Assembly: GCF_015482765.1 (NCBI RefSeq)
Contig: NZ_JADMLB010000071.1
Location: 62,001-126,000 of the forward strand
Source: Halodesulfovibrio sp.
GTDB taxonomy: Bacteria; Desulfobacterota; Desulfovibrionia; Desulfovibrionales; Desulfovibrionaceae
Direction of reading: 5' to 3'
Length of the DNA stretch: 64,000 nt
The notes beneath the pieces were generated by a model. The model worked only from the letters and a program-made list of their open reading frames with translations, ran no database searches and was not told the origin of the DNA. Of this stretch, positions 57,879 to 62,747 are shown piece after piece. Each line of letters opens with the position of its first letter. The first letter of the stretch is position 1. The position numbers and the translations under genes are program-made.

Positions 57879-58363
57879 AGGTATCCCTTTTTAGCAGTCA
57901 GAATTTGTAATAACCGTGCACCATTCTTTTTGTGCTAGGCTTTTCTTTTAAAAGAGCATGATGGCTGCATTAACATGCACAATGCATTGGATAATAACGG
58001 ATAGAGTGAAATACTCTCTACAACATAGCAGAGGAGTGACATTATACTAATGCAGTCATCATGCTGCGTGTTTTCATTGCACGCAGAAAAGAAAAAGCAA
58101 TACGCATGCCATAAAATATTTTTCTTATATTTTAATATAATACGTGAGTGTAGGTGATGGTGGCTAGATGTCTATTCACTTTTTGTGGTGTTAAGTGCTG
58201 AGATTTGCACTATATTGTGTAAAAATGGTGGAGTGTTGTGCATCTTTTACACTAAAGTGAATTAAATCAGATGGTAATGCTGTGCGTTGTGCAAATGGCT
58301 GTCGAGGTTTATGTACAGCAGAACAGGAAGGTTACTGATATTATGAAAGAAAAGGCCCCTTCT
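57879..58363. other. Non-coding region with a large inverted repeat
   Basis: Upstream of the zinc-ribbon gene. No gene is seen. It contains an 18-bp inverted repeat (57955-57972 and 58048-58065) with a smaller hairpin inside the loop and a CTGCGTG/CACGCAG hairpin near 58063-58086. It ends at the left half of the split terminator. Confidence 0.5.
57955..58065. repeat. 18-bp inverted repeat with 75-base loop
   Basis: The left arm AGCATGATGGCTGCATTA and the reverse complement of the right arm differ at one base (17/18). The loop holds AGAGT/ACTCT. It may be a small RNA fold, a transcription signal or the remains of a miniature element. Confidence 0.6.
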
Positions 58364-58373
58364 GCCAGATAGG
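58350..58373. repeat. Left half of split terminator plus left target-site copy
   Basis: AAAAGGCCCCTTCT (58350-58363) is one arm of the original terminator; GCCAGATAGG (58364-58373) is the left copy of the 10-bp target duplication. The other arm and copy are at 62094-62118. Confidence 0.85.
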
Positions 58374-58397
58374 CAAGACGTGGGACATAAATGTTGA
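58374..58397. repeat. Left terminal inverted repeat
   Basis: 24 bases starting CAAGACGTGGGACATAAAT; matches the right end reversed and complemented except for G versus T at position 9. Confidence 0.88.
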
Positions 58398-58411
58398 AAA
58401 AATAAATAATG

Positions 58412-58440
58412 AAAAACGTCCGGTGATACCGGACGTTTTT
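58412..58440. terminator. Terminator inside the element's left end
   Basis: AAAACGTCCGGT pairs with ACCGGACGTTTT around GAT, with A and T tails on both sides. It lies a few bases after the stop of the HEPN-like gene and insulates the element from the outside. Confidence 0.9.
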
Positions 58441-58442
58441 TA

Positions 58443-60149
58443 TTATTCAATAACAATCACTTGAAAAAGCTGATGAGGTTGTCTTCGTTTCGAAACTATA
58501 TACGGGGTACCAACGTAGCTAGCTTTTAATCCGGGCTTAGTAATTACTTTTTGCTGCACATAGTCAGCAACTTGTCGGATACCATCATTATTTTTTGGCC
58601 AAGCTTGTGTAGCTTTTGTTTCTTCTGGAAGAAATTCATATTTATCTTTCTTCTTGTGCAGCACAACAGTTCGCTCTTTGTTTTGTGATAAGTAATCATA
58701 GTCGCTATTCGAAACGTGAAAAAATGGCACTGTTCCAAGGTAGCGATCAAGTGCCACTTGATTGAACGCCTTATGATGCTTGATAGGATGATGGCTAACA
58801 GAATATTGCTTAAGAAAATCCCTTGGACTGATTCCAAGATCTGAAAAGGCAAAAAAAGCAAGTACAGACTTCACAGTGTGTAGTCTGTGATTTAACTTAT
58901 CTAATGAGCTTTTTGCCTCGCGACCATGAGCAATATCATTCCTATCATCAACTATGATACGTTGGATTTCGCTGTTTTTTAAAAATACAGTTGTTGCTTC
59001 CTTAGGATATGTTCCTAACACAGCCTTAAATTTATCTTTCAACGTGACTAGAGAGGTGGCAGGAAATTTTTCACCCAACATTGCAGTATCGATTTTATCT
59101 ATCCACGCTTGAAACGCCAAACTATCTTCAGGTGAAGACTTTTTGTAGCTTTCGAGAACGCTAGATAAATCCGAAAGTAATTCATCGTACTTTTTATCAG
59201 AGCATTTTTGTTCTAATTCTTTTGCGCGATAGCTTACATAGCCATCTAGTATCGTAAGATAGGTTAGCAATTCATATTCAATAAAGTGCGATTGGGAAGA
59301 TAAAGCAATATAGCGATACCAACAGGTCAAAAAGATATTTCGCTTTGCTGTAAAAAAGTTGGTCAGAATTTCTTTAGCAAATTGAATAAAAAAACTGGGG
59401 GTAGTAAGATATTCACCATACCAACGTATTTGGGGGAAGTTATCATCCGGTGTAGGATAGTAGAAAGCCATTTTTTGTTTTTTATCATTGAAGACTTCTA
59501 CATGTTGTAGATTAACACAGTATCCAAGAAGCAATGAAAAAAGCATACGAATATCGTGCAGTAAGTCTACAATGCTTCTTGGGTCAACTTCATTGCTAAC
59601 TGGCGTTAGGTAGATTGCGGCAATATCTTTAAGTTGAACGTTGCTATCAGCTAGAATCGAATGACTTAGCGTTGCTTGATGGTGAAGTTCAAAGAAGTAT
59701 TTTTTGTCATCAATTTCAAATTGATATTCAACACTTGGTATTTCTTCTCTTTCAAGTTTGGATGGCGTGTCAGAAGTGAAGTTAAAGCTACTCTGCTGAC
59801 AGTACCATTGAGATACCCCTTCCAGTTCGCACCGTATCTTCTTTATTGAACCAACCGTATGATCAAAATTGCTAATGATAAAAATTGGAACAATTTGTTC
59901 AGAATATCTTTTGTTATCATACAAATGAAACACTTGGTTTGAAGCCATGTCGTAACATGCTATTTCTTCAATGCTATTGGGCAGTCTATGCCAATTAAAT
60001 GCGTCGTCTTGATTAATGAATGTTAATTCTGGGAGCTTACCCGGAGCAAATGTAAGTGTAGCGTTAAATGTATGTAGCTTATCATTAACAACAAAATTAA
60101 AAGACACGTAGAAAGCGTTTGTAATATCAAATGGCAGACTGCTTGGCAC
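58443..60149 (-). CDS. ApeA-like HEPN-domain protein, candidate anti-phage RNase
   Basis: A 568-residue soluble protein, second gene of the element. The first 200 residues are beta-rich and resemble the ApeA N-terminal domain in layout. Residues about 250-435 are helical and contain RNDIAH (Arg403 to His408), the R-x4-H RNase motif of HEPN proteins, preceded by LLTYLTILDGYVSYRAKELE as in Apea-type HEPN domains. Such proteins cause abortive infection by cutting RNA (ApeA cleaves tRNA). The start is GTG with AAGGT nine bases upstream. It follows the transposase-like gene by 88 bases on the same strand. The assignment rests on motif and layout only; another HEPN family is possible. Confidence 0.65.
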   Translation of the reverse strand: MPSSLPFDITNAFYVSFNFVVNDKLHTFNATLTFAPGKLPELTFINQDDAFNWHRLPNSIEEIACYDMASNQVFHLYDNKRYSEQIVPIFIISNFDHTVGSIKKIRCELEGVSQWYCQQSSFNFTSDTPSKLEREEIPSVEYQFEIDDKKYFFELHHQATLSHSILADSNVQLKDIAAIYLTPVSNEVDPRSIVDLLHDIRMLFSLLLGYCVNLQHVEVFNDKKQKMAFYYPTPDDNFPQIRWYGEYLTTPSFFIQFAKEILTNFFTAKRNIFLTCWYRYIALSSQSHFIEYELLTYLTILDGYVSYRAKELEQKCSDKKYDELLSDLSSVLESYKKSSPEDSLAFQAWIDKIDTAMLGEKFPATSLVTLKDKFKAVLGTYPKEATTVFLKNSEIQRIIVDDRNDIAHGREAKSSLDKLNHRLHTVKSVLAFFAFSDLGISPRDFLKQYSVSHHPIKHHKAFNQVALDRYLGTVPFFHVSNSDYDYLSQNKERTVVLHKKKDKYEFLPEETKATQAWPKNNDGIRQVADYVQQKVITKPGLKASYVGTPYIVSKRRQPHQLFQVIVIE

Positions 60150-60237
60150 TTTGAACGACCTTTTTTTAGTTAGTCAGTAACAGAATACGAACTGTTGTGA
60201 ACATAGCATTTGAAAAAATGGAAGAAACAAAAGCTAG

Positions 60238-62010
60238 TTACCTATGCTTGTATCTTGCTGAAAAATATATAATGTCTTCCACACTTACAGGCCCATCTGC
60301 AAGCTTCAGGCGCATTGCTGGCGTTTCTTTTTTATCCGGCGTAGGTACATAATTATAATATGTTCTGTAGATGTCGATATATTTTTGAACCATTTCAGGG
60401 TTGTATGGTGCATAACCATTCCATACACCATTTGCACCACTGGCCGTATGAATTCCTCGCTCTAAAGGCGAGAGCTTTCGGCGTATGCAGTTAAAAAAGC
60501 GATCAATGCCACGTAAATTTCCTTTTAGGTATTGATAAGCAAGTTCTTCTTCTGATTCTGTATAATCAGGTACAATTCGAACTACCTTTTTATGCGGTTC
60601 ACCTTTGGTGCCAAAGGGGTGTTCCCATTCTTCTGTGGTTGGGTTCATTATGCTTAGATTGTACAGCGCCATTTGAACGGCTGCATCTGGGCTATCTTTT
60701 AATCCACGGGAAGCCAAAAATTTCTTGTATTTTTGTTTACATTCTAAAACGTAATTGACACGTTGATCGTCTTCAAGTCCCTTATCAAAGATGACATAAA
60801 AAGCATTTGCGCGCCTATCTGCGAAGTGGTTTTTAAATGCTGCCATTAAAGCAGCATTAATTCCTGTTTCTCGGTCCATATAAAAATTAAGCTGCCCTGT
60901 ATGCCCCAATAACTTTTTCAAATAAAAAAAATGGGCATACATAGTATATTCACTGTGTATTTGAACACCATACTCAGGCAGTTGCGCTGAAGATGGAAGA
61001 ACTTCCAGTAGTTCTGGTTCGACATCTTCCAATGCCAGTGTCAATTTCTTTAGTTCGCTCTGTGTTGAATCTAATGAACCAGATGAGGCAGGTTTAAACT
61101 TTAGGCGCTTGCTATAATCATGACTTGTCCACATCCTAGCGTAGCGTCTAAAAGGTGCTTTCAATTTATGGTCATTAATTTTTTCAATTTCTTCATCAAG
61201 TTCAGCTAAAGTTAGGGCGGGATCGAAGTTCACATTCATTGCAAATACATACCCAGAAGCATTATCAGCTGACCCTACCCCTTGCAGAACTACATTTCGC
61301 TTTAAGAACTTGTTAGGCCAATTGATCACGTAATCCTGACGATCTGTTGCGATATTAAGCTGTCGAAATTTCATCCGCTTCAGTTTGTCTTCACGATAAG
61401 AAGAAAATTTCAGACATTGTTCATGAATGAAGTCAATCTTTCTATACAAGGTTTTCGACGTTAACCCAGTAACTTCCCTAAGACTTCTGAATGGGGTTTT
61501 AGTCACAATATTTAGGAATACTTCACGGTTTTTATATGACCGTTTTTGTCTTCTAATGACTTTGCCGTTTGTAAAAATTTTTCCGCATTTTCTACATTTA
61601 TATCGCTGGTCGCCTTTCGCTGTCTTTCCAAATTTATGGTAGTGACTTAAAAAATGAACTGGGATTGCGTTGTTTTCACATTCAGTATCGGGACAACAAA
61701 GAAACCGATAAATACGCTCAGGAGTAATACGTTTCAGTTCTTCAGAAATCCCTTGGTTGCTTTTTATCACAGTTCGCTTGCCACATATTGAACATTTTAG
61801 TTGTGGATGATCGGGTCTACTGTTGTTCAATGTATAGCTATCACGATTCGTTTCAAATCCTTTCTTAGGACGACCACGTTTTATTGCGTCAACAGCAGCT
61901 GGCTTACCAAAATTATCGCAAAATGGATTTTTGCAATGATTCACTTGAATACCGTTGAATTCATTAGGTATTCTTGTGCCGTCGCCATTTGTAAGAAAAT
62001 TTTTTCCCAT
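60238..62010 (-). CDS. Zinc-ribbon, RNase-H-fold transposase-like protein
   Basis: A 590-residue protein with Cys pairs at 26/31, 73/76, 105-111 and 139/142 (RYKCRKCGKIF), a helix-turn-helix near 176-198 (LREVTGLTSKTLYRKID), then an RNase-H-like region: Asp223 (NIATDRQDYVIN) with a following strand pair, Asp379 (FYMDRE), and a C-terminal GIDRFFNCIRRKLSPLERG, where an acidic residue (Asp503, or Glu517) could complete a DDE/D triad. The end, TYYNYVPTPDKKETPAMRL, resembles IS integrase tails. Its place inside matched inverted repeats with target duplication supports transposase function. I do not recognise the exact family. The ribosome-binding site is inside a hairpin. Confidence 0.7.
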   Translation of the reverse strand: MGKNFLTNGDGTRIPNEFNGIQVNHCKNPFCDNFGKPAAVDAIKRGRPKKGFETNRDSYTLNNSRPDHPQLKCSICGKRTVIKSNQGISEELKRITPERIYRFLCCPDTECENNAIPVHFLSHYHKFGKTAKGDQRYKCRKCGKIFTNGKVIRRQKRSYKNREVFLNIVTKTPFRSLREVTGLTSKTLYRKIDFIHEQCLKFSSYREDKLKRMKFRQLNIATDRQDYVINWPNKFLKRNVVLQGVGSADNASGYVFAMNVNFDPALTLAELDEEIEKINDHKLKAPFRRYARMWTSHDYSKRLKFKPASSGSLDSTQSELKKLTLALEDVEPELLEVLPSSAQLPEYGVQIHSEYTMYAHFFYLKKLLGHTGQLNFYMDRETGINAALMAAFKNHFADRRANAFYVIFDKGLEDDQRVNYVLECKQKYKKFLASRGLKDSPDAAVQMALYNLSIMNPTTEEWEHPFGTKGEPHKKVVRIVPDYTESEEELAYQYLKGNLRGIDRFFNCIRRKLSPLERGIHTASGANGVWNGYAPYNPEMVQKYIDIYRTYYNYVPTPDKKETPAMRLKLADGPVSVEDIIYFSARYKHR

Positions 62011-62016
62011 AAATTA

Positions 62017-62046
62017 AGCCCCTGTTATCGTTAGATAACAGGGGCT
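62017..62046 (-). promoter_or_regulatory. Hairpin sequestering the ribosome-binding site of the transposase-like gene
   Basis: AGCCCCTGTTATC and GATAACAGGGGCT form a perfect 13-bp stem with a four-base loop. On the minus strand the 3' arm contains AGGGG, the Shine-Dalgarno sequence eight bases before the ATG. A TATGAT box at 62054-62049 would start transcription inside the 5' arm, leaving the element's own mRNA with a shorter stem than read-through mRNA. Confidence 0.7.
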
Positions 62047-62069
62047 ATATCATAGCTGTTTTAAATTAA

Positions 62070-62093
62070 TCAACATTTATGTCCAACGTCTTG
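62070..62093. repeat. Right terminal inverted repeat
   Basis: On the minus strand it reads CAAGACGTTGGACATAAAT and on, matching the left end at 23 of 24 positions. Confidence 0.88.
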
Positions 62094-62118
62094 GCCAGAT
62101 AGGTAGAAGGGGCCTTTT
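62094..62118. repeat. Right target-site copy and right half of split terminator
   Basis: GCCAGATAGG (62094-62103) repeats the left copy exactly; AGAAGGGGCCTTTT (62105-62118) is the exact complement of the left arm at 58350-58363. Together they were the terminator downstream of marC. Confidence 0.85.
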
Positions 62119-62132
62119 TGTTAGATGAAAGC

Positions 62133-62747
62133 TTAGAAGGTTTCCACAAACATACGTATGCCGTCTTCAAGCATTTGTACTGCCATAAAGATGAGAATAA
62201 GTCCCATCAGGCGTTCTGTTGCTCTAAGTCCACGGTGACCAAGTATCTTGGTCAGTGAAGATGAGCAAAGAAGAATGATTGCGGTAAAGAACCATGATAG
62301 GAAAATAGCTGTCAGTAATTCAGCATTACCATGCGGGCTTTCCTGTGAGCGGGCAGCGTACAGCATTACCGCAGCGAGCAAGGACGGACCTGCTAGTAAT
62401 GGGACTGCAATCGGTACAATAAAAGGATCTTTTTCCAGATCGGCTGAAGAACCGTTGCCTTGCGGGAAAACCATCTTCATAGAAATGATGAGCAGAATAA
62501 TGCCACCAGCTATACGAAGTGTAGAGTGATGGATATTAAGAAGACCCAGCAGGCTGTCGCCAAGGAACGTGAATCCAAGGATGATTCCAAGCGCGATAAC
62601 AAGTTCACGCAGCATAATGCGGCGCTGTTGCTTTGGTGTGAATGCGCCAAGCATGGGCAGACACATCGCAGCATTACCAAGAGGATCGAAAATCAGAAAG
62701 AGTGTAACAGATATTTCGAAAATGACCTGCCAGTTCAAATCCATCAT
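62133..62747 (-). CDS. MarC-family integral membrane protein
   Basis: 204 residues, six hydrophobic helices, with the family stretch LFLIFDPLGNAAMCLPML near the N-terminus. MarC/UPF0056 proteins sit in the inner membrane; the old link to antibiotic resistance has not held and the substrate is unknown. It lies three bases downstream of queD on the same strand. Its natural terminator, 15-40 bases after the stop, is split by the element, so read-through into the element is likely. Confidence 0.85.
   Translation of the reverse strand: MMDLNWQVIFEISVTLFLIFDPLGNAAMCLPMLGAFTPKQQRRIMLRELVIALGIILGFTFLGDSLLGLLNIHHSTLRIAGGIILLIISMKMVFPQGNGSSADLEKDPFIVPIAVPLLAGPSLLAAVMLYAARSQESPHGNAELLTAIFLSWFFTAIILLCSSSLTKILGHRGLRATERLMGLILIFMAVQMLEDGIRMFVETF

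Follow-up and report, generated by a model that had tools for sequence, protein, structure and literature searches.

Insertion sequence (IS)-like elements with passenger genes are known elsewhere, as are mobile elements whose targets are terminator or palindrome structures, such as group IIC introns, IS630 and the ISs targeting repetitive extragenic palindromes (REP). Among the IS families, IS1 generates target duplications of about 9 bp, while IS1595 members carry passenger genes and duplicate 8 bp of their target. The element analysed here lies in a 64,000-nucleotide stretch of Halodesulfovibrio sp. (NCBI RefSeq assembly GCF_015482765.1, contig NZ_JADMLB010000071.1, positions 62,001 to 126,000 of the forward strand), hereafter the window, where it occupies 3720 bp (58374-62093) and encodes a transposase of 590 amino acids (aa) and a HEPN protein of 568 aa. 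It is probably a DDE (Asp-Asp-Glu) transposon of an unnamed family that inserts into the loops of intrinsic terminators and carries exchangeable cargo, represented in the window by a single-gene abortive HEPN RNase. The sequence shows the ends, the duplication, the family, the hairpin-loop targets, the exchange of cargo and the RNA folds as computed, whereas the chemistry of transposition, the recognition of a hairpin or palindrome, the shielding from read-through and the activity and anti-phage role of the HEPN protein are inferred.

Concerning gene content, two described systems are among the closest. The fusion of an ApeA-NTD1 domain to a HEPN domain is a described architecture (PMC3710099, in its accessible part). 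The other is an 'insertion element protein' of Staphylococcus and Enterococcus, apparently always linked to dfrG and found on plasmids, on islands and on a prophage; the accessible part of that paper describes neither the ends of the unit nor a family (PMC8638950).

Structure of the element

A first-pass annotation, made from the sequence of the window alone, had proposed 24-bp inverted ends (23/24 identical) flanked by a 10-bp direct duplication. Both were recovered by direct reading, a repeat search and a script, the duplication GCCAGATAGG abutting the two ends (Table 1). When inverted ends with a flanking duplication were sought by script, the sole return was this pair, together with its one-base-shifted version. 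Only two proteins are encoded, as had been claimed: both large open reading frames (ORFs) are on the minus strand, with the HEPN gene 88 bp downstream of the transposase gene and in the same direction. The G+C content is 36-38% in the 1-kb blocks of the element (58000-62000 of the window) vs. 43-46% in the neighbouring blocks.

Table 1. Features of the element and of its insertion site (positions in the window)
Feature	Position	Strand	Basis or remark
Right terminal inverted repeat (cargo side)	58374..58397	+	23/24 match with the opposite end
Left terminal inverted repeat (transposase side)	62070..62093	-	Repeat search, script and recount
Target duplication GCCAGATAGG, copy 1	58364..58373	no strand	Direct reading and script
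Target duplication GCCAGATAGG, copy 2	62094..62103	no strand	Direct reading and script
Transposase, 590 aa	60238..62010	-	Zinc-domain HMM, invariant residues, model
ApeA-like HEPN protein (cargo), 568 aa	58443..60149	-	Pfam; GTG start, R403-x4-H408
Leader hairpin, 13 bp	62017..62046	-	3' arm contains AGGGG, directly ahead of the transposase ATG
Terminator-like hairpin within the cargo end	58412..58440	-	-24.1 kcal/mol, z -7.0
marC, gene with the split terminator, outside the element	62133..62747	-	Pfam MarC 9.4e-50
Arm of the interrupted intrinsic terminator next to marC	62102..62118	-	17 nt, 94% complementary to 58350-58366
Distal arm of the interrupted terminator, displaced by 3.7 kb	58350..58366	-	Repeat search, rebuilt empty site

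A long transposase outside the named IS families tested

The first reading of the window had been unable to place the large protein in a named IS family, and this holds for the families tested. With the transposase, no Pfam match above the cut-off was obtained and PADLOC gave none. Among the hidden Markov models (HMMs), NCBIfam IS1_IS1595_Zn (NF050000) matched residues 122-148 with 30.6 bits vs. a cut-off of 28, while the full-length IS1 transposase model NF033558 reached 29 bits vs. a cut-off of 100, and no full-length IS1595 transposase model was present among the HMM matches with E up to 1. The IS256 models matched at domain level only, below their cut-offs (NF048018, 23.3 vs. 27; NF048019, 16.5 vs. 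150). Also, a PDB sequence search with the transposase profile returned zinc fingers only. A structural model predicted from six sequences (predicted local distance difference test, pLDDT, 71; predicted template modelling score, pTM, 0.75) is RNase-H-like. Its best Foldseek match is the IS256/Mutator-type ISCth4 (E 2.7e-3, probability 1.00, template modelling scores 0.28/0.43), the only transposase-like entry among the top matches, yet no IS256 sequence model exceeds its cut-off. Residues D223, D379 and E517 are invariant in the transposase alignment; in the model, D223 is situated in a strand, D379 after a strand and E517 at the end of a helix. The protein is thus predicted to combine an N-terminal zinc-binding region with an RNase-H-like core, of which D223, D379 and E517 are the likely catalytic residues.

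As judged by the HMMs alone, the family appears distantly related to IS1 and IS1595 through its zinc domain and fits no named IS family tested. With these two it shares the N-terminal zinc-binding domain and short inverted ends, and it resembles IS1 in duplications of about 9 bp and IS1595 in having passenger genes, but it differs from them by a transposase of about 590 aa, ends of the type CAAGCCGTT... and a terminator-loop target. The 8-bp duplication of IS1595 is not found either: it is 10 bp in the window and mostly 9 bp in the family.

Distribution of the family

Transposase relatives were found at nine loci of the genome_contigs set, in 127 of 72,556 plasmid records (including 90 from Enterococcus) and in 2 of 50,697 phage records. 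They are present in 2/99 relative genomes and in 2/198 genomes of the phylum (own genome included in both), in 4/400 relatives of a Burkholderiaceae metagenome-assembled genome, and in 10/246, 6/249 and 5/390 genomes of three further groups (centre genomes included). In the viral contigs, no relative was detected with the window transposase as query and three loci with the family alignment.

From 45 loci examined (numbered with the prefix L), 31 complete elements were resolved, 14 loci being dropped before counting. These were loci with ends or duplication missing or unresolved (L009, L012, L015, L078, L079, L099, L105, L107, L108, L109, L110, L111 and L130) and L038, whose ends and duplication are the same as those of L018. 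The complete elements occur in Proteobacteria and Bacillota, and their length ranges from 1.9 to 10.1 kb. The duplication is exact in 27 of the 31 and has one mismatch in four (L008, L010, L018 and L095). By script, it measures 9 bp in 23 elements (24 in another count), 10 bp in five (one mismatched), 7 bp in two and 11 bp in one; that of L132 is 9 or 11 bp depending on where the ends are placed. The consensus end derived from 20 elements is CAAGCCGTTCACTTAAAGTGTTGA.

In Staphylococcus phage phiSa2wa-st1633 (L018:5332-8607), the dfrG unit has matching family ends and a flanking duplication; on these sequence features, the staphylococcal dfrG unit is a member of the transposon family. Its insertion element protein belongs to the same transposase family (25% identity), but the unit differs from the window element by its dfrG cargo and by a small ORF on the 5' side of its transposase gene.

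Vibrionaceae present a separate situation, with a transposase-profile match (E <= 1e-30) in 238 of 296 genomes (e.g. L049-L062 and L122). Four matches have full-length scores, and the other listed copies are mostly single and about 500 aa long. In eight proteins checked, out of ten loci, D223 has been substituted, a proline stands in place of D379 and E517 falls in a gap, with the cysteines mostly kept. From these alignments, the common Vibrionaceae homologue is probably a domesticated, catalytically dead transposase. The Salinivibrio homologue adjoins deoD and is itself annotated as a lactate dehydrogenase.

Exchangeable cargo

Besides the window proteins, 40 cargo ORFs were scanned against Pfam and 20 scans were made against PADLOC; this set covers neither the L132 cargo nor the smaller ORFs. 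Twenty-eight of the 31 elements bear cargo (all except L013, L016 and L017): ten have a recognisable defence module, one has dfrG (L018) and 17 have other or unknown genes. The defence modules comprise six restriction-modification (R-M) systems, one Mokosh-like system, one Tmn and two HEPN proteins. Type IIG R-M genes are carried by L077, L104 and L133 (1e-119, with a specificity subunit in the latter), and methylases by L004 (1.8e-37, with a weak specificity match), L008 (1.5e-20, with a weak restriction endonuclease match, 7.5e-6) and L073 (with a weak restriction endonuclease match, 5.4e-4, and a RES gene). L101 has matches to Tmn (8.2e-73) and YobI-ATPase (2.6e-107), and L095 encodes MkoC (2.1e-157) with HepT-like and nucleotidyltransferase genes. 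This last element, 10.1 kb long and located on a Polaromonas plasmid (L095:13867-23988), brings together the MkoC-like helicase, an HNH-annotated protein and the HepT/nucleotidyltransferase pair. The L006 cargo has an R-x4-H motif and a HEPN_RiboL-PSP match below the cut-off (0.0024).

As for the other or unknown genes, L011 and L100 have the same cargo (hydrolases), L102 has a Pfam beta-lactamase-type domain, L103 also falls in this class, L106 has a nuclease-like DUF6035/CoiA protein and L010 has a pair of toxin-antitoxin appearance that no database supports; the remainder includes membrane proteins and unrecognised ORFs. Cargo is mostly located 3' of the transposase, L073 also having 5' genes, and L018 and L112 a small 5' ORF.

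Closely related elements have the left end and the transposase in common but diverge thereafter. L096 and L097 are 85% identical over nucleotides 1-1944 (left end and transposase), with no match beyond, and L098 and L101 are 70% identical over the first 1.9 kb or so. In a single genome, the three copies L130, L131 and L132 are 99.3-99.5% identical over about 1.97 kb and continue with different DNA. L130, whose right end could not be located, nevertheless has 2.4 kb in common with L132 and 0.5 kb with L131, and the cargo of the three is therefore regarded as mosaic. Such comparisons show that the cargo in the slot 3' of the transposase is exchangeable. These three recent copies, with their near-identical transposases, are also a good place to seek an active element. 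An ORF in the L098 cargo (L098:10412-11161) resembles, by eye, an IS30-type transposase, which suggests a nested insertion.

A tight pairing of HEPN and transposase genes as a family trait was considered and rejected, since the cargo varies across the family. The HEPN gene of the window is one instance of interchangeable family cargo. The first-pass annotation had seen in this compact two-gene unit a vehicle for immunity: defence cargo does recur (10/28 cargo-bearing members), whereas this particular gene pair was met only once.

The HEPN protein and its possible roles

The HEPN protein matches Pfam ApeA_NTD1 (3.9e-7; 30.3 vs. a cut-off of 25.5 bits). Its reading frame is intact and includes R403-N-D-I-A-H408, the R-x4-H motif at the position initially reported. 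With ApeA defence proteins it shares ApeA_NTD1 followed by HEPN with R-x4-H; unlike them, it is transposon-borne, lacks a PADLOC match and has a HEPN_Apea score below the cut-off. Kinship with the HEPN cargo of L006 was not retained: only the RNDIAHGR stretch is common to both, so the two are treated as separate acquisitions. The domains of the protein, together with the company kept by the transposon family, make an abortive RNase its most likely function: the N-terminal domain would sense infection and the R403/H408 site would cut RNA in an anti-phage role.

Several results weigh against the overall reading of the element and its cargo. The fold match of the transposase is weak, none being obtained at E <= 1e-3. 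HEPN_Apea reaches 21.6 bits vs. a cut-off of 24.4 (3.1e-4), neither PADLOC nor a PDB sequence search gave a match for the HEPN protein, and its single-sequence model is unusable (pLDDT 35.8). The HEPN gene was seen with the transposase only once, and 18 of the 28 cargoes were not recognised as defence. A search of 58 other relative genomes, 72,556 plasmid records and the viral contigs, but not of genome_contigs or metagenomes, revealed no relatives of the HEPN gene.

Another explanation would be that the cargo is random genomic DNA caught between the ends, and the HEPN gene a passive hitch-hiker or inactive. The 17 of 28 cargo-bearing members with other or unknown genes (e.g. hydrolases and membrane proteins) would fit, as would the single encounter of the HEPN-transposase pair. 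We nevertheless find this unlikely, given that the HEPN frame is intact with its R-x4-H motif and that defence is the largest recognisable cargo class (10/28, a count beside which no genome-wide background is set). Slightly less likely is a role as an addiction module stabilising the element rather than protecting the cell: the window element has no antitoxin-sized partner and most cargo in the family consists of neither toxins nor HEPN proteins, even though HEPN RNases are often toxins and L073 and L095 carry, respectively, a RES-type toxin gene and a HepT/nucleotidyltransferase pair.

Insertion into terminator hairpins

In the window, marC adjoins the insertion site and points into it. When the empty site is rebuilt, the duplication covers the loop of the marC intrinsic terminator, whose arms are now located in the two outer flanks. 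Neither this terminator, nor the strong hairpin at each end of the element, nor the large family had been mentioned in the first-pass annotation. The gene is present in nine of the ten genomes of the genus (own genome included). In all eight other same-genus genomes with marC, no element end was found within 200 nt past its stop codon, and the nine other same-genus genomes have no transposase match; the element-free site expected in relatives thus exists. In four of the eight (L115, L116, L118 and L120), a script detected a terminator-like hairpin followed by T shortly after marC. L121 has only a weak hairpin about 140 nt from marC, and imperfect hairpins were recognised by eye only in L114, L117 and L119.

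At the family level, the rebuilt empty sites of 29 elements (L013 and L018 left out) were compared with their local background. In 22 of them, the duplication centre is within 1 nt of the centre of a hairpin ranking in the top 1% of local positions, mostly an intrinsic terminator; with L096 and L100, where the hairpin is offset by 6 and 2.5 nt, 24/29 sites have a hairpin. In 20/29 sites, an A-tract lies on the left and a T-tract on the right. In an earlier run on 24 sites, the hairpin was at or below 0.01 in 18 sites, and in 17 against an intergenic background; both tracts occurred in 17/24 vs. 4.6% of the background. The site sequences differ between insertions, so that the shared feature is symmetry or structure. 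Taken together, the family appears to insert preferentially at intrinsic terminator loops, the transposase perhaps recognising the hairpin or the palindrome. On the negative side, five sites (L016, L017, L077, L104 and L134) have no hairpin, so the preference is not absolute, and the hairpin statistics rest on local and intergenic backgrounds, without a control of unrelated ISs.

Terminator loops might instead be merely where insertions survive, being intergenic and harmless. Such insertions do avoid genes, and a flanking ORF points toward the site in 28/31 elements, roughly 75% being expected by chance. Survival alone, however, needs no exact centring, whereas 22/29 duplications are hairpin-centred within 1 nt, and the intergenic background still leaves 17/24 sites at or below 0.01; we regard this explanation as improbable. 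Preferring a choice made by the transposase, we think that the element is a DDE transposon whose 9-10-bp stagger is centred on palindromes: its transposase of about 590 aa would move it into intrinsic terminator loops, with the duplication centred on the loop, and the element would settle between genes and break none. As generally described, group IIC introns differ in being retroelements that insert beside the stem, and IS630 and the REP-targeting ISs in having short sequence motifs as targets.

Leader hairpin and transposase expression

For the leader of the window element, the computed fold has an energy of -28.3 kcal/mol (z -8.2); the AUG region is paired, and the 3' arm contains AGGGG, which precedes the transposase ATG and is likely the Shine-Dalgarno sequence. 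The first 130 nt fold better than shuffled sequences (z <= -2) in 30/31 elements, the exception being L008 (-1.88); for L073, the 130 nt preceding the transposase were used instead. L017 and L098 have no perfect stem of seven or more in the leader, and the best leader stem of L010, L011 and L100 involves the end repeat itself. The hairpin may shield the start of the transposase gene in read-through RNA coming from a neighbouring gene, while RNA from the element's own promoter would escape it; the hairpin near the cargo end could stop outgoing transcription. That the HEPN protein itself regulates transposition, e.g. by cutting transposase RNA, would suit its co-directional position 88 bp downstream, but most family members are devoid of any HEPN gene and this is very improbable.

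Implications

A long-transposase family combined with loop-centred terminator insertion, a leader shield and swappable defence cargo was not found in the literature searched, the coverage of which is partial. We lean, somewhat beyond even chances, towards a general vehicle, in which a transposase choosing its sites by DNA shape or symmetry, and reading the palindrome or the extruded terminator hairpin across many unrelated sequences, a read-through shield and a swappable slot would together bring phage-defence modules into sites that are insulated and harmless. If so, the spread of single defence genes outside islands and prophages would be explained by a compact transposon that finds, through terminator hairpins, a safe site in nearly any genome. 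Target choice guided by structure would also become testable in a DDE transposase, and the staphylococcal and enterococcal dfrG mobile unit, so far poorly described, would join a larger family. Finally, with 17 of the 28 cargoes consisting of other or unknown genes, new defence genes could be sought in the cargo slot.

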